A DNA stretch of 64,000 nucleotides from Dolomedes plantarius (Eukaryota; Arthropoda; Arachnida; Araneae; Dolomedidae). Of the stretch, positions 12,307-44,716 are shown piece by piece. The notes under the pieces are model-generated. The model worked only from the letters and a program-made list of their open reading frames with translations. It was not told the origin of the DNA and searched no databases. A program made the translations under genes and the position numbers. The stretch is from NCBI GenBank assembly GCA_907164885.2, contig OU015490.1, forward strand, positions 97,435,104 through 97,499,103, in the 5' to 3' direction. Position 1 is the stretch's first letter; the number at the start of each line of letters is the position of its first letter.

Positions 12307-13356
12307 GGGGAGATCCGTGTAATATGGACCCCTAAGCAAGAATGCTCATAAAACTTAAATTATTTTTCAAGAAAGATTTAATTTGCTGGCTGCTCATTGC
12401 AATTGGATAGCTGCATGGTTTAAGTTTGGTAAAGTACGAGTACTCTAGTAACTATTAATAATTGCAGGAAATAATTTTTTTATTTTCGTGTCAGTGGTCC
12501 ATATTACATATACGTTCGTGTAATATGGACCGAACGTATGTGTAATATGGACCACTAATACGAGAATAAAAAGTATGATATAGAGTGAAAGACGGACGCA
12601 CAAAACTGTGCTTTTAGTAAATTCATTTCAAGTACAGAATTACCACAATAATGGTGCATCGGGTTGGTTATGTTGGAGCAATCTTCATGCACCCATGAGC
12701 AGCATTTCTCGCACATGATCCAGTCTTCCTCCGTACTCTCCCAGCAGACTGCGCAGAAAGTGAATAGTTCAGTAACTTGATTCGCAGCAGTCTCCTGGCC
12801 GGAGGTTCCTGGGGATGTCCCTACTGAGACCCTTGGAGCTGCCTGGAGTTTTTGCTCTGTCGTCTTCTTCTGTACAAGCATCTCTTTTTGAGCTTTCTGG
12901 AGGAATTATTTCCCTTGTCTGCAGATGTTATCCATCCAACGTGTCTACAACGTGTAATATGGACCTGGGTCCATATTACACAACATCGCATGGTTCATAT
13001 TACACGAATGGACGGGAGCAACGTTGTTTCCAATCACATATCGCTATGAAAAATGGTGAGCATAAAATACATGTATGGATTGTTAAGAAAATAAGTACAT
13101 TTTCTACTATTAAAGTGAAAATTATATTAAATTTACCTAACAGAAGAAAGTAATACTGTCATTTTAACATACTTGTTACATCAATGAACATATAAGCCAA
13201 AAACACAATATCATAATCACCCAAATGAAGGCACACATGTACAAGTCACCTCATGCTTTTCATAACACTAATATTCACTAAAGGCAATGGGATTGTTCTG
13301 CTATCTAGTGGTGAACAGATAAATTTCCCCATGGTCCATAATACACGGATTTCCCC
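12307..13356 (-). mobile_element. Pogo/Tigger-like element, internal deletion copy 1
   Basis: It begins GGGGAGATCCGTGTAATATG and ends in the complement (...TACACGGATTTCCCC), with TA on both sides (12305-12306, 13357-13358). Copies of the core word TGTAATATGGACC recur in both orientations near 12495-12555 and 12953-13010, plausible transposase-binding sites. It is the same family as 22245-25247 and the tail at 62100-62425. About 1.05 kb remain; only the C-terminal PHD-finger part of the coding region survives. Confidence 0.88.
12555..12881 (-). pseudogene. PHD-finger C-terminus of a pogo/Tigger-like transposase
   Basis: The minus-strand frame contains FCAVCWESTEEDWIMCEKCC followed by SWVHEDC and YCGN. 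That is a Cys4-His-Cys3 pattern with the hallmark Trp two residues before the His, as in PHD zinc fingers. Several arthropod pogo/Tigger transposases end in such a finger, which may bind chromatin. The last zinc-binding Cys is missing or displaced (YCGN instead of YxCxxC). The DDE catalytic domain, present in the sister copy at 22245-25247, is deleted here. The plus-strand frames at 12815-13153 are shadows. Confidence 0.7.
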
Positions 13357-24809: not shown

Positions 24810-25249
24810 TTCAACGTGTCTACAACGTTAATATGGATCAGTGGTCCATATTACACAACAGCGCATGGTTCATAATACACGCATGGACGGAGCAACGTTG
24901 TTTGCAAAGACATATCGCTATGCAAAATAGTGCGCATAAAACACATGTATCGATTGTTAAGAAAATAAGTACATTTCCTACTATTAACGTGAAAATTATA
25001 TTAAGATTACCTAACAGCAGAAAGTAATACTTTCATTGTAACATTCCTGTTACATCAATGATCATATAAACTAAAAACACAATTTCATAATCGTCCAAAT
25101 GAAGGCATACATGTACAAGTCACCTCCTGCTTTGGATAAAACTAATATTCACTAAAGGCCATGGGATGGTTCTGCTATCTAGTGGTGAACAGATAAATTT
25201 CCACGTGGTCCATTTCACACGATGGTCCATAATACACGGATCTCCCCTA

Positions 25250-26175
25250 TACCAGATACACATGGATGTAGGTTCCTCCCTTGTTATGGGCAAAGCAGTT
25301 TAGCGATAGCATATTTTATAGGTGCTTTTGGTGTTTAAATCAAACCGACTAATAAGAAGGTACGGTTAGTAAAAAGGTTATATTGGGGGATAAAATTATT
25401 TCCCGAGTGCTTTTGAAGCATTATAAGTTTTAGGCAGCTGTTCCTTCGATATGATCTGAAATCTTTTAAAGATTCCTTTTTGAGATTTGCGCAGTTTGTT
25501 CACTGTAGATTAAACACGGTTGTTTGAGCTGATTAGAAATGATTCAATACGAATATTAAATATTTATTGTTTAAAAAATTTCAAATTAGTAGTAAAAGAA
25601 TAGTTTTATAAAACATGAAGGATAATTAGTTAATGCGAATACTCTCTAAGAATATTTTATAGATGAATATATAGTCTGCTGTTTACTTACTTTTTATATT
25701 ATTAAGATTAGTGAAAAATTTAATATTGGTAAAATATTAAGGCATTTAAAATAATTTTATCGCACCTTGAAATTATCTTTCTAAATTTAGGTTTTGAGGT
25801 ATAGCATATAAAAAGAAGTAAATTCGAAGGAGGGTTTTTTTTCCCCATGATTATGTGAAATATAACATGGAGTTACATGACATTTCATCAGGCACTTTTA
25901 AATAGGAGATTTCTATTAATGTAACTTTCCCGTTCTTAGAATTCAAAATGACAGTGAAATTACATTACATGTCTTGATAGATGCGTTTTTCCATGGTGAC
26001 AGAATATGATTCAATTATTTCTATACGGTCATTGTAAGTCCTATTTTGACTTCGTAACACGTAAGAAGTTCCGGTTATTATCACTAGTCAACACAAGTTG
26101 AATTAAGGGACAGAAATTCTTCAAGAGTGCTTTCAAAGCATTTTGTTTTTATATTCAATAATTTTTTCTAAGGTA
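25250..26175. repeat. Tandem repeat family T1, segment 1
   Basis: First visible part of a long tandem repeat with a period of about 1.6 kb. Landmarks: a 'TTGTTATGGGCAAAGCA' block, a type-A 'CGATATGATCTGAAATC' block at about 25450 followed by 'TTCACTGTAGATTAAA', then 'ACATGAAGGATAATTAGTTA' and 'ATATAACATGGAGTTA'. Each full unit also contains a related type-B 'GATCTGAAAT' block followed by 'TTCACAGTAG', so the unit itself arose by an older internal duplication. The segment ends where the TA-flanked element at 26176 begins. No coding signal; short frames here are chance. Confidence 0.85.
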
Positions 26176-28100: not shown

Positions 28101-28262
28101 AAAACCAATATCATAGCTTAAACAGGCCCTCTAAGACTTGCTAAGATACATGCAATACAAAGATTTTTGAAAGATATACATATTATTATAATTTGAATTC
28201 GGTAAATGCATAGTATATAAAAAAGGTAAAAATATATGGCCCAGTTGCCCCAACATACTTTA

Positions 28263-29428
28263 TATGATCTGAATTTGTTTAGAGATTCGTATTTGAAATT
28301 TGTGCAGAGTGTTCACAGTAGGAAGAAACCGCGTGTTTTAGAGGCTATGAGAAGATTTCAAAAAGAAATATTAAATATTTATTTTATATAGAAATTTCAA
28401 AGACGTAATAAGACAAAACTTTTATAAAAGAAGACTGATAATCAGGCAAAATCAATATAATCTTATGCATACACAGCGTTTTAACTTTGTTGAATTGTTT
28501 TTACTTGACGTAAGAAAGAACTCATTACCGATATAAAACCCAAGATACGCATTCTTGCAAGATTGGATATTTTTAGCAAAATAATAACTTTGTAACATTG
28601 TTCCTTATGGGTAACCTTCTTATTTCAGATACAACACTTGTTCCGTGAGATCATATATATATAACTTTTACATAGACAGTTAGTGTAAACCAATTAAATG
28701 TACAAATAAAATGGGTCTAAAATTAAATTCCGGTAATTTTGTAAAGTATTTAAAATAAGTTTCTTAGCACTTTGAAAATACTTCCAAATTGGACGTTTTG
28801 ACATGAATAAATGTATGAAATGCAGTAAATAACAAAGAGATGATGTTTTCACAAAACCGTGAAACGAAACTTCTGTGTAAACATGCGATACACATGACAC
28901 ACAGAACTGTAATAAATTTAAAAAGTATGACATATATATCTGGAAGTAGTTTTCACCCTTGTTTAGGGCAAAGCAATTTAGCGACAGCATGTTTTTTAGG
29001 TGTTTAGATGTCTAAATCGACCCGACGATCGAGAAGGTCCGTTTAGTGTCCTGGAGAAAAATATAGTATTGGGGGATAATATTATTTCACGAGAGCTTTA
29101 TTAGCATTATAAGTTTTAGGCCACTCTCTCTTTCATATGATCTGAAATCGTTTAAATATTCATTTTTGGGATTTTTGCAGTTTGTTCACTGTAGATTAAA
29201 ACTGTTTCTTTGAGTTGCTAAGAAATGATTCAATAAAAATTTTAAATGTTTATTGTTTAAAAAATTTGAAATTAGTAGGAAAAGAATAGATTTATGAAAC
29301 ATGAAGGATAATTAGTTAACGCGAATACTCTGTAAAAACATTTTTATAGATGAATATATATTTTGTAGATTACTCACTTTTTATATTGTTTAAATGAGTG
29401 AGAAATCTAATATTGTCAAAATAATAAA
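28263..29428. repeat. Tandem repeat family T1, segment 2
   Basis: Contains the type-B block at its very start, then 'CGTAATAAGACAAAACTTTT', 'AATGGGTCTAAAATTA', 'GGGCAAAGCAATTTAGCGAC', and the type-A block at about 29137. It aligns collinearly with 34237-35579 and 42246-43370. It ends at the left end of the piggyBac at 29429. The 98-codon minus frame at 28694-28990 recurs with changes in other units (34808-35035, 44536-44748) but without conserved protein character, so I do not call it a gene. Confidence 0.85.
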
Positions 29429-32581: not shown

Positions 32582-33070
32582 TTAAAAACATCCAGCTGAA
32601 TATGTAAGACCTTCTCTCTTTCTGTCTAGCTGTTCTCTTTTACGAATAGCTTTTTTAATTATTTTATGAGCAAGTTGGTACTTTGCATTCTTACGCCTTT
32701 TCCGAAACAAAACTTTTCGTGAATCCAACATAATACCAAGTTTTTTCGTGGAATGACCAACATTCATTCCTAGTACATTTTGTACTTCTCTTATTGTGTG
32801 CATTGTACCTATATTAAACTGACAAACTGTTGTTGATACACATAGTTTTACTCGTTGTCTATTAACAAATATTTCTTTAGAGCACTTTGCCCAAATCACA
32901 CTGTGCAAACTCTCATTAGCATTTTGAGTTCCACAACGCACACATCTTTCCAAAAGTTCACTAGATGCAAGCCGTTGATATATGGGTAAAATTGTTGGAA
33001 GAAATGCTTCATTTATTGGGGTACCTACTCTTAATTTGTGACTACCTGGATTGTCACCTCTAGCCATCAA
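32582..33070 (-). pseudogene. Kolobok transposase C-terminal part
   Basis: Contains RCGTQNANESLHSVIWAKCS followed by KEIFVNR and VCQFNIGTM. This matches the conserved 'TQNxNESxxSVIW...' C-terminal region of Kolobok transposases. A Lys/Arg-rich tail ends the frame at residue 162. The N-terminal domain and the catalytic region that normally lie between are missing: a separate 49-codon start segment lies immediately upstream (33060-33209) in another frame, so most of the middle has been deleted. It cannot be active alone; it might move with a complete relative. Confidence 0.8.
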
Positions 33071-33209
33071 TAATAGATGTATTCTGGAGTCTGAAATTGG
33101 AATTTAGCACATTTATGGCACTGCTGGAACCTGGAATCTCATCTTTCGTTGAGCACCATCTTTTATTGTTCATGCGAGATGAATGTGCTTTACGCTTTCG
33201 ACTAACCAT
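33060..33209 (-). pseudogene. Short N-terminal segment of the Kolobok gene
   Basis: A minus-strand frame of 49 codons starting MVSRKRKAHSSRMNNKRWCS and ending at TAG (33060-33062), overlapping the start of the C-terminal frame. Its position and basic character fit the beginning of the same gene after an internal deletion with frameshift. I did not recognise a domain in it. Confidence 0.5.
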
Positions 33210-33812
33210 ATTAATATAAATAATGCAATTATTAATATAAAAATCGTTAGAAAACTAAATAATCACTTATTGGTATATATATAAGCAAGAAATTAAAGGA
33301 AATCAAAAAGATTTAGTCTTGAAATGATTTTTTAAAACAATAAATTAACCGAATCACAAGTTGAAAACAGCGTAGCACATGTAAACAACGATCTACTAAG
33401 AGTTAATTTCACAGTTAAATGCATGCTTTTTCTATTACGCATTACATTTGAAATTCAGGGAGGAAATTTCAGAGTAAATGGAATGTAAACACTGAAGTGG
33501 GCGTGGCATTTAAATGGCTGTTAAGATTATAAAATGTATTTTTGATACACTTACAATCGTCAGATCAACTTAAAACTTTGTACCAATATGCTAGAGGTGT
33601 CAAAGTCTATTTTTAACAAAAAATTGAAAAATCGATATTTTCATCAATATAAGGGTACCGAGTCCCCTTAACGTAACCTCGAAGCCCAAAAATCAATCCC
33701 TAGTTACGTTCTAAGTAATAATTTTCATAGGACAATACGAATAAAATAGTATTTTTCACAGAGTTTTGAAGTTGATGTTCCTATTTGGGAACATTGGCAA
33801 GTAAAAGGTTAA

Positions 33813-35579
33813 GGTATATAAAATAATTTTTTTCGTACTTTCAAAGTAACTTTCTAAATCTAGGTTTTGAGATAAAGCCATATAAAAAGAAGTAAAGACG
33901 AGGGCATTTTTTCCCATGATATGTGAAATATAACATGGAGTTAAATGACTTATCATCAGGTACTTCTAAATAGGTACGCTCCATCAATGTAATTTTCCCG
34001 TTCTTAAAATTGAGAATAACATTCAAATTAGATTCGATGCCTTCATAGATGGGTTTTATCGTGGCGACAGAGTATGATTCAATTATTTCTATACAGCCAC
34101 TGTAAGTCCTCCTTTGACTTCGCGACACGCAAGAAGGTCCGTTTATTATCACTGGACAACACAGGTTGCATTAAAGGATAGAAATTTTTCAAGAGTTCTT
34201 TCAAAGCATTTTATTTTTATATTCAATAATTTTTTCAATATGATCTGAAATTATTTAAAGGTTTGCTTTTGAGATTTCTGCATACTGTTCACGGTAGAAA
34301 AATTCGCTTGATTTAGAGGCTACGAGACGATTTAATAAAATATATTAAATTATTATTTTTTTGAAAAATTTCAAAAACGTAATATGACAAAACTTTTATG
34401 AAAGAAGACTGATAATCAGGCAAAATCAATACAATCTTATGCATACACTACGTTTTAACTTTGTTGAATTGTTTTTACTTGACGTAATAAGGAACTCATT
34501 AACGTAATAAAATCCAAGAAACACATTCCTTCTTGGATGGCATATTTTTGGCAAACTAAAAACATTTTAACAATGCCGCCTTATGGGTTACCTTAACATT
34601 TTAGGTACATCACTTGCGGCGGAATTTAACTGCTGGTGTTCAACTGAATCAACCTTTGTATATCTATCCTGAGCCGTGCAGCTAAGCGAATTAAAATTGC
34701 ATATAAAATGGGTTTAAAATTATACACCGGTAATTTTTTGAAGTATTTAAAATAAGTTGTATAAATTGGACGTTTTGACATCAAAAATTGTAAAAAAGAG
34801 TAAATAACTAAAAGATGCTGTTTTCACAAGAAACTTGAAATGAAACTTCGAATAAAATAAAATATATTATCGCTTTTCTCATTAGATGACATAGACGTGA
34901 TACAGAGATCTTTAAAATATTTAAAAAGTATAACATATGTACTTGGACGTAGCTTTTGCCCTTGTTATCGACACAAAGCAATTTAGCGACAGGAAGTTTT
35001 TTTGTGTGCTTTAGATTTTTAAATCGTCGCGACAAATGAAAAGGTCCAGTTAGTGTCCCTGGAGTAAAAAGTTAGTATTGGGGCATGAAAATATTTCGCG
35101 AGCGCTTTTGAAGAATTAGAAGATTTAGGCAGCTGTTTCTTCGATATGATCTGCAATCATTTAAAGTTTCGTTTTTGAGACTTTTGCAGTTTTACTGTAG
35201 ATTAAAACCGCTTCTTTTAGTTACTAAGTAATTATTCAATCACCATATTAAATTTATATTGGTTAAAATTTTTCAAAGAAGTAGTGAAACAATAGTTTTG
35301 TGAAACATGAAGGATAATTAGTTAATGCGAATACTCTCTTAGAATATTTTATAGATGAATAGATTTTCTGTTGTTTATTCACTAATTTTATTATTTAAAT
35401 TAGTGAGATTTTAATATTGGTAAAATATTAAGGTATTTAAAATTATTTTTTTCGCACCTTCAAAATATCTTTCTAAATTTAGGTTTTGAGTTAAAGACAT
35501 AAATAAAGGAGTAAAGAAGAGGGACGTGTTTTTCCATGACATATGAAATATAACATTCAGTTAAATTATATACCATCAG
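33813..35579. repeat. Tandem repeat family T1, segment 3
   Basis: Resumes exactly where segment 2 stopped ('AAGGTATATAAAATAATTTT'), runs through a type-B block at 34237, 'AATGGGTTTAAAATTA', a type-A block at 35141 and 'ACATGAAGGATAATTAGTTA', and ends at ...ACCATCAG where the long-TIR element starts. The B-to-B distance, subtracting insertions, is about 1.6 kb. Minus frames at 33841-34152 and 34808-35035 are chance frames within the repeat. Confidence 0.85.
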
Positions 35580-36167
35580 TAGCCCAGTCAAAATAGGTTT
35601 TATGGCTAAAAAAAATATGAGTTTTGAAAATTTGTGGAGATGTTTGTTTAGGCATGCTAATGAACATACTAAAAGTCCCCACCGATCAGACTTGAGCTTT
35701 CGCCGCCATCTTGGAAAATGTGTACACTTTTTGGGTTTTTTGGAAATAACTTTAAAAATATTGATTTTATAAAAAATAATTAAATACAAAAATTAAAGAG
35801 CATTAAATTATGAACAAAAATCATTCATAACATTTTTTTATATGTCTAACAGGAACAAAGATAATTGACTTTGAAAAGAGCGCACTATCACACCTGGGAC
35901 GCGCAACCGCGGTTCGCCATCGCGGTGGAGGGAAATACCCGCGCATGAGCATACCATAATTATCCAAATTAGTTTTACACTAAATGGGAAGGTTTTTTGT
36001 ATTTTTTCAAATAACTAGGGAAATATTAACTTTATTTAAAAAAAGTTTATTTCAAATATTAAAAAACATTAAATTATGTACAAAAACGATTTTATACATT
36101 TTTGTCTTAAACCTAACAGGAACGAAGATATTGACTATAAAATGCGCGTTGATAATGGAGGTAGCTT
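35580..36167 (+). repeat. Left long terminal inverted repeat
   Basis: Pairs with 41373-41971. It includes a GC-richer patch (GCGCACTATCACACCTGGGA ... CATCGCGGTGGAGGG at about 35880-35940) in an otherwise AT-rich arm and ends at 'AATGGAGGTAGCTTTA'. The two arms differ by scattered substitutions and small indels. Confidence 0.85.
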
Positions 36168-37584
36168 TAAAGTATCGTTGCAGGGGCTTTTCTTTGAATA
36201 TCTAACCTCTCCCACATTTCGGCATTCTTTAAACACAAGAAAATAGACTTTAATGTTTTTGGCTATGTAGATAATTAATCATTAATAATTTTATACATGA
36301 ATGTAGTAAACTTGGGGGTATTCACTATCAGATTTCCATTGCGAATAATTGTTCAAGCTTACATACTTCAGGATTTACGTGCTTTTTTCGGTACGGGATT
36401 CTCCACTTCGTCAGGCATGTATAGATCGTCTATGGATCCGCTAGCATCGGCCCATTCATCAACTTCTTTCATTCGATCGTCATCATCAACAGGGTTGATG
36501 CCATTCTGACATACCCCATTGTAATTATTGCAGGCCGTTGTGCAGTTGATGCCTGCTTTCCGACATCCGCATCTTACTCCATTGTCAGTCTTACAGTTGC
36601 AAAACACCATGTTTAAAACTGAATCGGGAGCTACTGCATCCATAGTTGTGATGGGCACAAGAATTTTCTCTTGACGCTTCCAGCCCCACAGGCAGTTGGG
36701 CCTTTCTTTTTCAGGTGCTGCAAAGTCTTCCTCATTTTAATTTCGATGGCTCGTATTTGAGTGTGTGCGTTTAAGGTTTCTTGCGATGGTGGTTCAGTAG
36801 CAAAATCTCGAAACAACTCACGGAGATTTTTACATTTCAAATCCGATATGTCCATGCCGTCAAAAATTATTTTTGCTAAAGCTGTTTCGGTCAATAAATG
36901 AGCTCGGACTGCCCTAGCGTATGCATGGCCAGGCAACATTTTTTCTACTGACGTAAGTGCATAAATCAAAGTTAGTATTTCTTTCAACCCACTTCCAGCC
37001 ATTATGTACCCAATGCAGCCTGAGAATGACATTAACCCATTAATGCCCAACATCGAATTCTTTAATTTTCTTTACCTAATTATGTTCGTAGAGCTGCAAA
37101 ATGAACTGAAAAAATAATAAAAAAATTCCTGCATTAAAATTTTAATTTTTATTCAAAATAATGTTACTGTCCTATAAAAAGGACGCTAGGCACGGGAGGG
37201 TACAGGTTTTACACAAACACTTCAACCCTTAGATTTTCTAAAACTATTCCTTTTAATGTCGTTTTTAGATAAATAAACGCATGAAACCAATGGAACTCTG
37301 CGAAAAAATGCATAGTAAAATAAACACAAGGTTTTTAAATTGTATTTTAATCATTTAAAAGAAATCAAAACAATTTAAAAAGCTGAAAATGTCAAAAATA
37401 ATAGCTTAAAAGGCACAAATTTAATAAATTATGTGTTATGATAAATTTTACACTCTTTTATATTTAAATTTACATATAAAAGGGGCTTATTAAAATACAA
37501 AATAATGAAAAAAGTCTATTCGTATTTTTTTTTTTTTACACAATTTATATACAAGCTATTTTGTGCGAAAGATTACAAAGTATT

Positions 37585-38350
37585 TAAAATGCAATCCAAC
37601 TAAACATTTATTGCATTTTCTTGTGGATTTTTTGCCACAGTAGGCGCATCTTATCTGTTTTGGATTCACAACGATTAAATGATCTTTTCCTCAATACCGG
37701 ACATCACCAGACTTTTTGAATTTTTTTTTGGTTTCCATGCAGCCAGACTGTTATTTGGTCTCTTACTGTACTTAGAAAAATATGTCTGACAGATTTCTCT
37801 TCTAAAGTGGAGAAGATCCATTCTGTTACTGTCATTAGAAGGGCATAATCTGTACAATAGCCACGCATTTTGGATTGATGCTTCTAAGCTAAACAAAAAC
37901 AGAGGCCACCACCATTTTTTAGACCGTATGGAACACTGGTATTGTGCCAGATTTTGATCCATTTGATCGGTACCTCCCATAAATTTATTATATTGAGACA
38001 CAATATACGGTTGGTCAATCTCTATAAATCTGTTATCAATATTCGACCAGCGTTTGGCCTGAGCTACAGGTTCAATACCATAATGGTTAGACGCCAAAGT
38101 AACGACACTATTGTCATTCCACCGAACCATTTTAAAATTTTTGCTGTTCTGAAAATCAAAACTTCCCCTACTCTTCTTTTTAACAGATTTAACATCTCCA
38201 AGTGGACATTTTTTAGTTCTATTAACCCGTATAGTGCCAGTCATCGGTAACTTCATTAGATGGTGGGTCCAAATAAATATACGCTTCATGGAATGTATCA
38301 TTATCAGATAACTCTGCCATTAAAGCTAATGCCTCTCCACAGTCAAACTT
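37585..38350 (-). pseudogene. piggyBac transposase 2, internally deleted
   Basis: From the N-terminal side: FDCGEALALMAELSDNDTFH ... AYIYLDPPS (acidic N-terminus, about 38350-38240), then directly IRVNRTKKCPLGDVKSVKKK, MVRWNDNSVVTLASN, YNKFMGGTDQMDQNLAQYQC, IRSKKWWWPLFLFSLEASIQ and NAWLLYR. After a one-base frameshift near 37690 comes the zinc-binding tail QIRCAYCGKKSTRKCNKCLV. The middle third of a normal piggyBac transposase, with the first two catalytic aspartates, is deleted; the third (GGTDQMD) remains. The plus-strand frame at 37942-38250 is a shadow. Confidence 0.9.
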
Positions 38351-38359
38351 AAAATAAAA

Positions 38360-39230
38360 ACAAAAATTTAAATAAGAGCTTTAAAACTTATCGATTGCTC
38401 ATTTCAGTATATTTAGATCAAATATAATTTGGATTAAAAGACAAAATTCTTAAAATTTATTAAATTATAGACTTTTAAAATACGCATATTTTTAAAAAAT
38501 CCAGACAATTACTTATGTACTTCGTAATTTTTCTTTATTTTTTAAAATCACTAAATACAGAACACATCCTTTGATTAAAATTTTTGTATTTAAGAGGCTA
38601 ATTTTTTAATACGTTCATTTTATTATCAAGAGGCTAATATTTCTCTTAAATAAGAAATTATTTTAATCATTCCTTAATCAACAGAACATTTATTTTAAAA
38701 TTATTTTCATAAATAAGGAATACTCAATAATCTTTATTTATAAAAATAATTTATAACATCATTTTTCTGAAAATAAATAGCATTTCCTTTTCTCTATGGT
38801 AATAAAACATCATAAATTGAGAAAAAAAGACGCATTCGTATAGCGGAACAGGTCAGAAAAACATGTACCCATTCGTGCCTAGCGTCCTATATATAGAACG
38901 CTGCGCAAAAGAAAATATAACAGTGTTAAAAAATAATTTTAACAATTTTGAAAAATACATATTTAAGAAAAGAGTATTGACTGTGATAACAGCATAAAAT
39001 ATTTTCGTAACATTGAAAAACAATAAAATAAACTTACTTTTTGTGTGACGCTCTTTTGAAAACGTAAAAAACGACTAACTCTGACTTTCGACCCTCAAAA
39101 TAGATATAGAACATTAATGTAGTGCTACCAACTGATGGATAATAAGAAATACAACACTTTATCATGATATTCTGCTATTTGGATCGAAAAAAATAAAAAA
39201 TTCAGTGATTTAGAGCTTATTATGTAAGCG
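38360..39230. other. Non-coding interior of piggyBac-like element 2
   Basis: AT-rich sequence between the transposase start and the right inverted repeat; no gene. A subterminal copy of the GCTAGG-type word lies near 38878. Confidence 0.5.
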
Positions 39231-41204
39231 TCCTTTTAAAAGGACGCTAGGCACTAATGGGTTAAAAGATGGAATCCACCAAACCTCACAATACAACTTG
39301 ATAATAATGGATTGGATGTTGCTGCGACTATCTCTCGAGCTTTAATATACAGCGGTTGGTCAAACGTGAGTATGCAAGACTTTTGGTGCATTTTAACACA
39401 CTGCTGGGCAGCATATTTCAGCACAGTGAAAATGGTGTCATACTTGCTTGATGGTAAATTAACAAAAGGAAGGGGTATTACTTTGGTCTTTTCACAAGGC
39501 TGGTTTCTGGTTATACAATGTAAATCCTTTCCATTCAGGTATCTGTGGAAGACCTAACCACTTAGCACACATCCAGGAGATATCAGATGGTTTAGGCAGT
39601 GGTAAATCTTCCGCTAAAGGATTTAAGACATTCACATCTTCCATAGTAATTGTTTGTAATCCAGGCCCTCGAAAATTTTCAAACGTTTCTAGAGGAATGA
39701 TTCCCATTTTGCCTACGGTCGATGCAGATGTAAGTTCGGTTAATTTTTTTTATCTTCGTCCCGGGTTCCACTGCTGACGCTGGAGTAAAACAAGCAATGC
39801 CCCCCATGCTATGAAACGTATTCAGGTCATCGATTGTCGACATATTGAAATCTGCATTGTCAAATACGAATTGGCAGAATGATCCCTCGCACATTTGGGG
39901 TTGCGGATGATTTATGGCTGACATCTCAAGTGTTTGGGCTTCATAGTAAGAAGAACAAAATCCCAAATTCGAGAGCATTGTTATTAAATTCTTGGAACAG
40001 AACTTTTTGTACAAGAATAAATCAAGACTATTGAGCAGAGGAGACATAAATGATCGTGGCCTTAGCGCTGATATAATGACGTGAGCTATTGAAGTGACTA
40101 TTTTTTCGGCCTTAGCAGTCTTTTTTTAATAATCAAGTGCTCCAAAAATATTTTAGGCTTTCTGGAATTCCCTTGTTCCCATCTCTGAAAAAATTATCAC
40201 TTGGAGGGTAGCAATGAGTGTCATAAACTGGTATCTGGATATCTTCTTTTATTATGGCTGCAGCAGTTTGTACTATTCGTAGACGCTCCTCATGATCATT
40301 TCGTATCCTTTTGTCGTACCAAGAGTCTGATAAGACTTTCATTCCAGTATTACGTAAACATATGACAGTAACTTTTTTGGAGTTTGAAGCAAAAATAATG
40401 TCATCCCCGTATTTTTGTTTCAACTTATTTCTCAAAGTGATGTCGTCTGGAACTAGCCCTGTAATTTGAGATTTGAGTTCAGGTAGTGAGAATTGACAGT
40501 CGTCATTATCGAGGAAGAAGGATATTTCGTCTACAGCTGCTGAGGCGTAATCCGACTCAGGCTGCCCTCTCTTTCTGATTGGTACAGTGTGTAGAAAAAA
40601 AGTCATGAAGTAATCTTGGTGATAAATCGCATCAGCTGCAACTAAATCAGCAACGTTTATTATACGACACTGAACTTCCTCTCTTCACTGATCATGTCTA
40701 TTCTCTGCAGCTTCAAGAACTTTGTGTTTCATTTCGAGACTCCTAACTTCGTATAGTTCTTCGTCTGTCAGTTGGTTTTTTCATCTGTCTTGCTTTGAAT
40801 TCTTCGTCTATCACTGCCGTACAAAAGAAACATTTTGTTCGAAAATCGAACTGAGGTAAAAAAGATCGTAAACTTACCGCGCGCTCTTCACTTTGGGATG
40901 TTGACGCGATTTCTGCATTTCTTTTTAAATCAACTTTTATATTTCCTGGTTTGGTGTAATTTCTCCGACACAACGAATGAACCGAAACAGATTTTAAATG
41001 TTCCAACTGTTCATGCTTATTGTCTTTTCTTTGGACAATAGCTCTGTTTAAAGCGTCGATCTTTTCTCCTACATTCACGAAATCATCATTTGACATTAAT
41101 TTTTTACTTATAAAAACATAGTTCCGTATCAGCCATTGTTCACAGACGCACACGGAACGGTGACTAACTATTAACTGGCTAGGAAAATACTAGGGTAAGA
41201 CCGA

Positions 41205-41330
41205 TTTGGCGCATTACGGTATGCACATGCACGTGTCTTCCAGCCATCGCGATGGGCACCCACGCATGCGCGTCAATGGTGTAATAGTGCGCTCTTTCCA
41301 AAGTCAATTATCTTTCTTCGTGTTAGACTT
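41205..41330. repeat. Extra partial copy of the terminal repeat of the long-TIR element
   Basis: 'CATTACGGTATGCACATGCA ... CCATCGCGATGGG ... GTGCGCTCTTTCCAAAGTCA' repeats the order found in the right arm at 41580-41690 in the same orientation, diverged. The right end of the element therefore carries a second, internal copy of part of its terminal repeat, reminiscent of foldback-type ends. Confidence 0.75.
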
Positions 41331-41372
41331 AAAAAAATATAATATATGTTTTTTGTGGATTGTTTTTTGTAG

Positions 41373-41971
41373 AAGCTACCTCCATTATCAACGCGCATTT
41401 TATAGTCAATATCTTCGTTCCTGTTAGGTTTACAACAAAAATGTATAAAATCGTTTTTGTACATAATTTAATGATTTTTAATTTTTGAAATAAACTTTTT
41501 TTACGTAAAGTTAATATTTCCCTAGTTATTTGAAAGAATAAAAAAAACCTTCCCATTTAGTGTAAAACTAATTTGGCTAATTATGGTATGCACATGCGCG
41601 GGTATCTCCCCCCACCGCGATGGGGAACCGCGCTTGCGCGTCTCAGGTGTGATAGTGCGCTCTTTTCAAAGTCAATTATCTTTATTCTTGTTAGACATAT
41701 AAAAAAATGTTATGAATGATTATTGTTCATAATTTAATGCTCTTTAATTTTTGCATTTAATTATTTTTTATAAAATCAATATTTTTAAAGATATTTCCAA
41801 AAAACCAAAAAAGTGTACACATTTTTCAAGATGGCGGCGAAAGCTCAAGTCTGATCGGTGGGGACTTTTAGTATGTTCATTAGCATGCCTAAACAAACAC
41901 CTCCACCAAATTTCAAAACTTTCATATTTTTTTTAGCCATTCGTCAAAATCGGTCTATTTTGACTGGGGTA
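41373..41971 (-). repeat. Right long terminal inverted repeat
   Basis: Inverted partner of 35580-36167. Contains 'CAAGATGGCGGCGAAAGCTC' (about 41828) matching the complement of the left arm at about 35690-35715, and 'CCATTTAGTGTAAAACTAAT' matching the left arm near 35965. Confidence 0.85.
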
Positions 41972-41974
41972 CAG

Positions 41975-44714
41975 GTACTTTTAAAAAGGTGCATTCTATT
42001 AAATTCACTTTCCCGTTCATAGAATTGAGAATAACAATCAAATTAGATTTTATGCCTTGATAGATATGTTTTTCCATATGTACAGAATATAATCCAATTA
42101 TTTCTATATAGTCATTGGAAGTCCTCCTTTGACTTCTTGACACGCAAGCATGTCCGGTTATTATCACTGGGGAATGCAGGTTGAATTGAGGGACCGAAAT
42201 TTTTCTTTCAAAACGTTTTTTTTTTTTATATTCAACAATTTCTTCGATATGATCTGAAATCATTTAAAGATTCGTTTTTGAGATTTGTGCATACTGTCCA
42301 CTGTGCAAATATCCGCTTATTTTAGACGGTATGAGAAGATTCCAAAATGAACTATTAAATTTTCATTTTCTATATAAATTTCAAAGACGTAATAAGACAA
42401 AACTTTTCTAACAGAAGACAGATAATCGGCAAAATCAGTACACTCTTATGCATACACTATGTTTTAACTTCGTTGAACTATTATTACTTGACGTTATAAA
42501 GAACTCATTACCGATATTAAACTGAAGAAACACGTTTCTTCTAAAATTGCATATTCTTGGCAAACTAATAACATTTTAACATTGCCGCCTTATGGGTACC
42601 CTTCTTATTTCAGATACTATACTTACAGCGGAAAGTAGCTGCTAGTGTTCACACGGAACAACGGCTATTGGACAACGCATAAAGGGACAGACAGCTGCGG
42701 TATACATCGCGCGAAGATGGCAAAGCAAGAGAAGGACAACACCAGGACAGGGTTTGGAGCGCTACGGTCAATTTTTGCTACACGAGGGTTAATTAGACCG
42801 GGATCTACTGCTTAAAGCCGATTTCGAACGGCTACAAACGTCCATGCCAAGAGTGGGACCAGGATAGGGAAATGAAACAGACAGAATCCGATCCTGTGGT
42901 ATATCAGTTTCCTTTCTGGGCAATATCCGGTAAAGCGAATTAAAATCATATAAAATGGGTCTAAAATTATATTATGGTAATTTTTGAAAGTATTTAAAAT
43001 AAATTTCTTTTAAAGCATTTTAAAAATAAATCTCAATTGGACGTTTTTACCATCAAAAATTTTATGGAAAGGAGTAAATAATAAAGAGATGTTGTTTTCA
43101 CCAGACACTTGAAATGAAACTACGAATAAAAGAAATTATATTATCGCTTTTCTCCTTAGATGCCATAGACGTGATACAGAGAACTTTAATACATGTAAAA
43201 ATTATAACATACATACTTGGACGTAGTTTTCGCTCTTGTTATGGGCGAAAGCAATTTAGCGGCAGCATGCTTTTTAGGTGCTTCAGATGTTTAAATCGAC
43301 ACAACGAATCAGAGGGTCCGTTTAGTGTCCCTGGATTAAAATGTATTATTGGGAGATAAAAATATTTCACGAGTGCTTTTGAAAATTTTAAACTTTTGCT
43401 GTTTAAAATATTTCAAATTAGTAGTTAAAGAATAGTTTTATGAAACATTAATGATAATTAGTTAATGCAAATACTCTCTAAGAATATTTTGAAGATGAAT
43501 ATATAGTCTACTGCTTACTCACTTTTTATATTATTAAGATTAGTGAGAAATTTAATATTGTTAAAATATTAAGGTATATAAAAGATTTTTTTCGCACCTT
43601 GAAAATATCTCTCTATATTTAGGTTTATATATATAGACATATAAATAGCAGTAAAGACCAGGGAGGTTTTTTTCCCATGATATGTGAAATATAACATAGA
43701 GTTAAATGACACATCATCAGGTACTTCTAAATCAGTGCGTTCTATTAATTTAACTACCGTTCTTAGAATTCAGAATAACACTGAAATTAGATTTGATGCA
43801 TTCATACTTGACTTTTGTCATGGAGACAGAATAGGATGCAATTATTTCTATACAGTCATTGTAAGTCCTCTTTCGACTTCGTGACACGCAAGAAGGTCCG
43901 GTTATTGTCATTGGGCAACACAGGTTGAATTAAGGGACAAAACTTTTTCAAGAGTTCTTTCAAAGCATTTTATTTTCATATTCAATAATTTCTTCTATAT
44001 AATCTGTAATCATTTAATGATTTGTTTTCGAGATTTGTGCATACTGTTGTTCACAGTAGAAAAATCCGCTTCCTTTAGATCCGCTATGAAAAGATTACAA
44101 AAAGAGATATTAAATTTTTATGTTCTACAGAAATTTCAAAGACGTAATAAGTCAAGACTTTTATAAAAGAAGACTGATAATCGGCAAAATCTTTACACTC
44201 TTATGCATAAACTATGTTTTAACATTGTTGAACTATTATTACTTGACATTATAAAGAACTCATTACCGATATAAATCCCAAGATACACATTCCTTCTTAA
44301 AAGGCATATTTTTGCAAACTAATATTATTTTAACATTGCCGCCTTAAGGATACCCTTTTTATTTCAAATACAACACTTACAGCGGAAGCAACAGTTGCAG
44401 CGGAAACTAGCTGCAACTGTTCAAAAGAGACAACGGTTGTATTATCAATTTTGGGCGATAGACAGTTAAACGAATTAAAATTACATATAAAATGGGTATA
44501 AAATTATATTCTTTAAACCATTTAATATAAGTTTCTTAACACCTTGAAAGCACCTCTATATATGACGTTTTTACATCAAGAAATGTATGAAAATGAAAAA
44601 ATAACAAAGAGATGTTGTTTATACAAGAGACGTGAAATGAATCTTCGAATAAAATAAAATATATTATCGTTTTTTTCATTAGATGCCATGGACGTGATAC
44701 AGCGAACTGTAATA
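41975..44714. repeat. Tandem repeat family T1, segment 4
   Basis: The longest uninterrupted part: type-B blocks at 42246 and about 43997. The type-A block expected near 43380 has been deleted, and the SINE plus about 150 bases of unknown sequence are inserted at about 42658-42910. The array ends at 44714, where a Tc1-like end (TACAGTGTGCC) begins. Frames at 43114-43359, 43684-43884 and 44536-44773 are chance frames. Confidence 0.85.
42753..42857 (-). mobile_element. 5'-truncated copy of the tRNA-derived SINE
   Basis: In complement it matches the 3' part of the SINE at 5239-5348 ('CCACTCTTGGCATGGA...', 'TCCCGGTCTAATTA', 'ACCGTAGCGCTCCAAA') but lacks boxes A and B. It is flanked by a 12-bp target duplication with one mismatch, ACCAGGACAGGG (42741-42752) and ACCAGGATAGGG (42858-42869). 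5' truncation with target duplication fits LINE-driven retroposition. Confidence 0.88.
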
Positions 44715-44716
44715 TA

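Follow-up and report, generated by a model that had tools for sequence, protein, structure and literature searches.

The stretch analysed here, called the window, comprises 64,000 nucleotides of contig OU015490.1 from the spider Dolomedes plantarius, and at positions 35580 to 41971 it holds an element with long inverted arms and the remains of a broken gene. The questions raised by this locus are to which kind of transposon the element belongs and how a family with a damaged gene could have spread. Its boundaries, its genomic copies and its protein relatives indicate that it very probably arose by internal deletion from an AcademX-type cut-and-paste transposon, a kind in which a DDE transposase is combined with an XPG nuclease, and is itself non-autonomous. 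AcademX comprises those transposons of the Academ superfamily that encode an XPG-type nuclease. A sequence-only reading of the window had proposed a DNA transposon family, possibly Academ-related or else not yet named. The first suggestion agrees with the 3-bp duplications, the arms, and the XPG-type nuclease and DDE-type core of the relatives; the idea of an unnamed or undescribed system, for which this element had been rated the window's best candidate, finds no support.

The boundaries can be read directly. Repeat search and arm alignment delimit a left arm of 588 bp with a TAG end (35580–36167) and a right arm of 599 bp with a TAC end (41373–41971), which are 93.7% identical over 599 columns; a separate repeat finding gave 560 nt at 95%. 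Within the left arm a sub-repeat of about 155 bp occurs twice, as imperfect direct copies, and alignment places an additional, asymmetric sub-repeat copy beside the right arm only (41191–41356). The termini read TA[G/C]CCCAGTCAAAATAG, with end sequences TAGCCCAGTCAAAATAG and TACCCCAGTCAAAATAG, and CAG stands outside both, at 35577–35579 and 41972–41974. In sibling repeats the site CATCAGGTACTT occurs without interruption at 33954–33965 and at 43715–43726 (+), and with one mismatch at 25886. Because the joined flanks align unbroken to three sibling repeat units (43385–44387, 25248–26168 and 33801–34653), insertion and 3-bp duplication are direct observations. The inverted arms, the matching ends between two CAGs and the uninterrupted site in a sibling repeat had all been noticed in the sequence-only reading and stand.

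These ends are widespread in the genome, which was searched over 2.78 Gb in 390 contigs. The exact 17-base ends occur 2,459 times (1,255 + 1,204) against one occurrence (0 + 1) of a reversed control pattern, a count far above chance. The first 20 other copies were selected for high similarity to the first 121 bases, so that young copies are favoured; both ends were present in all of them, exact 3-bp duplications in 19, and a length of 4.13–4.22 kb in 18. The window element without its nested piggyBac copy measures about 4.16 kb. Four more copies were picked through their protein matches; the reading covered just their ends, and all of them have exact duplications. Of six additional copies with diverged ends, L029 and L030 do not enter the duplication count, because the sequence read reached one end only in each. 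Altogether, 24 of the 29 copies with both ends read, the window included, carry exact 3-bp duplications, and these differ in sequence between copies. Other copies thus show 3-bp duplications and inverted arms at the same boundaries, and the genome searches with their 2,459 ends do not describe a single-copy host gene. The left arm as a DNA query against plasmids gave no match.

Among the first 100 ends listed, 38 inward-facing pairs lie within 12 kb and 24 ends have no partner. Every one of the 38 pairs combines a TAG with a TAC end, and 19 pairs measure 4.155–4.221 kb, so that the 4.17-kb type accounts for about half of the pairs sampled; by extrapolation, it would number several hundred copies or more. 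Pairwise divergence among 19 copies is 0.4–4.3%, with a median of 2.8%. The other pair lengths and three diverged relatives with similar ends (L032 4376–7800, L033 1307–7800 and L034 4287–7800) show that the same ends also serve different internal structures. In these three the arms continue into transposase coding sequence that is itself duplicated in inverted orientation (residues about 595–712, both sides); pieces of the nuclease are retained, and other parts are lost. In L030 the element end occurs twice (201 and 336), 135 bp apart and with an identical 8-base flank. A separate repeat family probably accounts for a 12-base pattern, TAGTACAGTCAA, which occurs 882 times in the genome against 297 for its control and forms several pairs on one strand at a spacing of about 5.88 kb.

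Where the sequence-only reading saw one long broken gene between the arms, about 2.23 kb is a nested piggyBac copy that it missed (37036–39261, minus strand; 37032–39265 with its TTAA), recognized by Pfam and by TTAA at 37032 and 39262. The transposase fragment of this copy (37675–38319, 214 aa) matches Pfam DDE_Tnp_1_7 (PF13843) with E 4.9e-23 over the C-terminal part of the model only; the copy is defective. The element's own gene is interrupted by piggyBac, carries several frameshifts and stops, and is about 620 internal residues short of its relatives. As located by tblastn with P0001, a full-length relative, its N-terminal part (39263–41136, minus strand) consists of a cysteine-rich N-terminus and an RNase H core in which the first and second conserved aspartates are present, and a further transposase piece lies between the nested element and the deletion (36691–37035, minus strand). 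At the approximate deletion junction (36685–36700, minus strand) the protein alignment passes from residue 748 of P0001 to about 1368. The C-terminal remnant (36368–36736, minus strand), with a CXC-like cysteine cluster, is in a different frame from the preceding piece; the window family as a whole aligns to P0001 15–748 and then 1361–1445. A sub-threshold Pfam match (PF23153, E 0.0098) was disregarded, as were four matches at E 0.23–0.74 that a 183-aa piece from the window gave against PDB sequences.

The internal deletion is common to the family. Residues 754–1297 of P0001 are unmatched in all 21 copies compared; the first match ends at 748–753 in 17 of them and at 711–721 in the other four, and it resumes near 1368–1372 or as weak overlapping alignments from 1298 on. 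L031 and L048 show the identical jump. With P0017, the closest relative by tree distance (sister support just 0.51), all 12 long own-genome matches (53–55% identity), from a search that scored 31 of 12,888 candidates, end at residue 750 or 751. With these roughly 620 residues, 21 of 21 copies have lost the nuclease as well as both glutamates that are candidates for catalysis, and the window family is therefore non-autonomous. The majority of 18 copies yields a single frame of 761 codons, with its ATG at 41136 as read from the window, that ends just beyond the junction; L015 and L019, which have large inserts, were excluded from the majority and the frame counts. Of the core residues, this frame retains the first two conserved aspartates and neither candidate glutamate; the cysteine-rich N-terminus is kept, and the C-terminal cysteine cluster lies in another frame. 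At least two frame breaks are present in each of the 19 copies examined. A 10-bp deletion is common to four copies and a stop codon to three others, all inserted at separate sites with flanks of their own. Since copies with breaks common to independent insertions have multiplied, the frame damage points to supply of the protein in trans.

What the deletion removed can be judged from the relatives. Searching with a read-through of the broken gene gave 16 proteins, and searching with full-length P0001 gave 258; among the 120 matches listed of the latter are proteins deposited under the names of beetles, ants, aphids, moths, whitefly and coral. Full-length relatives are about 1,480 aa long. In their predicted structures the core is nearest to the transposases of the P element, hAT, Transib and RAG when compared with a second aligner, and an XPG/FEN/Exo1-type nuclease fold is predicted behind this core in the same protein. 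P elements make 8-bp duplications and are not known to encode an XPG nuclease, both unlike the window family and its relatives. Pfam searches on 12 relatives gave DUF6589, a family without known function, above the cut-off over the core in three (P0041, P0113 and P0115; best E 1.7e-8), five of the six relatives in one of the scans having been selected for an existing DUF6589 entry in the database. A scan of viral contigs with the relatives' alignment A3 gave 22 pattern matches and no relatives. P0046, deposited as from the rust fungus Austropuccinia psidii, falls inside a clade of 10 tips (support 0.97) together with the window family and a protein from a leaf beetle; either contamination or horizontal transfer would account for this placement.

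According to PMC10045372, AcademX elements make duplications of 3 or 4 bp and AcademH elements of 9–10 bp, a difference that is related there to the encoded nuclease or helicase. The 3-bp duplications of the window family and those of its relatives (CTA, GAT and GTCT) are of AcademX size, terminal inverted repeats are present at the boundaries, the transposase is of the DDE/RNase H type, and the relatives combine it with the XPG/FEN-fold nuclease. The window family differs from AcademX in having neither the nuclease (0 of 21 copies) nor the two candidate last catalytic residues; because the nuclease was lost by deletion, it is classified as a non-autonomous derivative and not as an autonomous AcademX element. 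Its arms, about 590 bp, also differ from those of two full-length relatives in the host genome, which measure 146 and about 365 bp. In length, the full-length relatives (5.9–6.1 kb) resemble the bivalve Academ elements, for which PMC10294476 gives a mean of 5,565 bp. With AcademH the element shares the superfamily name, whereas the 9–10 bp duplications and the helicase described in PMC10045372 are not found here, a helicase being absent from the Pfam matches listed for the 12 relatives.

Three full-length relatives without stops are present in the host genome, with frames of 1,641 (L035, on C1), 1,641 (C10:81924139–81930198) and 1,490 codons (L036 549–6407, on C4). The first two elements are about 6.07 kb long with duplications CTA and GAT, the C10 element having been read at its ends only, and L036 is 5.86 kb long with a 4-bp duplication, GTCT. 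Their ends, TAGTCCAGTCAA and TAGTCCGGTCAA, resemble TAGCCCAGTCAA.

A probable course of events can be formulated on this basis. The window family arose by one internal deletion of about 620 codons, perhaps through faulty gap repair, which left both arms in place, and the form that then multiplied lacks the entire nuclease and both candidate glutamates. An AcademX protein of full length, provided in trans, would bind the arms of about 590 bp, probably via its cysteine-rich N-terminal part. The DDE core would then cut at the TA[G/C]CCC ends and join them to the target with a 3-bp stagger, producing the 3-bp duplications. The trimming of flaps or other intermediates may fall to the XPG-like nuclease. 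Later, piggyBac inserted into the window copy. Deletion derivatives that retain their ends and are moved in trans are familiar among P elements, KP and Har-P (PMC6917496) being examples.

Several observations weigh against this interpretation. A Foldseek search with the DDE core gave nothing at E ≤ 0.001, and the AcademX assignment was made by comparison with the published duplication size and the XPG definition. The own-genome protein searches scored 31–32 of about 12,700–12,900 candidates. Four of the 12 own-genome P0017 matches have one internal stop only, so less damaged copies exist, and the frame breaks of a single base in homopolymers could be independent recurrences or assembly errors. 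Exact 3-bp duplications are missing from the young copy L026 and from all four older copies with diverged ends in which both ends were read (L031–L034), where age may be the reason. The intact full-length relatives are other families at the DNA level; their longest DNA alignments with the window family are 188 and 265 bp at 69–70% identity. Neither the P0017 matches nor the pairs from the first 100 of the 2,459 ends yielded a full-length copy that has the ends of the window family; reading of the middles covered the pairs of 5.91 and 6.12 kb and did not extend to those of 5.77 kb (two), 5.50 kb and 5.17 kb on C1. Of the candidates for such a partner, L048 carries the common deletion and in L047 window-type DNA continues to about 20 bases beyond the junction; both look like deleted copies with inserts. 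It is conceivable, if unlikely, that the window family has lost its full-length partner, that it was spread by other AcademX families whose arms differ and which share with it only the outermost TAG[C/T]CC[A/G]GTCAA, and that its truncated transposase formerly restrained those relatives in the manner of KP.

A related explanation, which we consider quite unlikely, is that the 761-codon protein is a functional repressor that binds DNA through its N-terminal part without catalysis and partly drove the spread. Drosophila KP elements provide a precedent. The single open majority frame with its cysteine-rich part and two aspartates would suit this role, as would the less damaged copies. The two or more breaks in all 19 copies, several of them common to independent insertions, argue against it, and silent changes make up 23 of 94 substitutions found in at least two copies against 22.6% expected (p 0.62, a test of low power). 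Silent changes are not enriched, and there is therefore no sign of selection keeping the truncated protein.

That the element represents an undescribed DDE superfamily outside Academ is very unlikely. Seven window pieces of the main gene gave no Pfam match above the cut-off, which would agree with such a superfamily, but the XPG-type nuclease, the DDE-type core, the duplications of 3–4 bp and the length of about 6 kb fit AcademX, and relatives are known from many insects and coral among the matches listed. It is harder still to regard the deleted form as an autonomous short transposon that needs neither nuclease nor last catalytic residue. Its many copies and the lack of a detected full-length partner with the same ends could be taken that way, but both invariant candidate glutamates are absent, the frames are broken in 19 of 19 copies, and open-frame full-length relatives with similar ends exist in the genome. 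Duplications of 3 bp also occur in CACTA and Zator, and a piggyBac copy is present, though nested inside the element. Membership of CACTA, Zator, AcademH, Kolobok or piggyBac can nevertheless practically be dismissed, since the relatives have an XPG-type nuclease (Zator being set apart by description only), the TA[G/C]CCCAGTC ends are not of the CACTA/EnSpm type, as the sequence-only reading had remarked, and the duplications are 3 bp and variable, neither the 9–10 bp that PMC10045372 gives for AcademH nor TTAA, which belongs to the nested copy.

Around the element, related repeat units (25248–26168, 28262–29427, 33801–34919 and 43074–44716) flank and interleave with it and are about 73–86% alike over longer matches. 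The window also contains a 173-aa open frame at 32582–33103 (minus strand) without a convincing Pfam match, which we take to resemble a mutator-like transposable element protein.

In the literature on Academ-type transposons, at the level of titles and passages, no title describes the window family. As far as these searches show, the family is new; its kind is known and its mechanism is ordinary. It presents a young, high-copy case, diverged by a few per cent, in which an Academ-type transposon yields a widely spread deletion derivative, and it does so in a genome where full-length relatives keep open frames. The predicted structures set the Academ-type core close to the transposases of the P element, hAT, Transib and RAG and show an Exo1/FEN-type nuclease following this core in one protein, which makes the role of an XPG enzyme in a cut-and-paste transposon testable.

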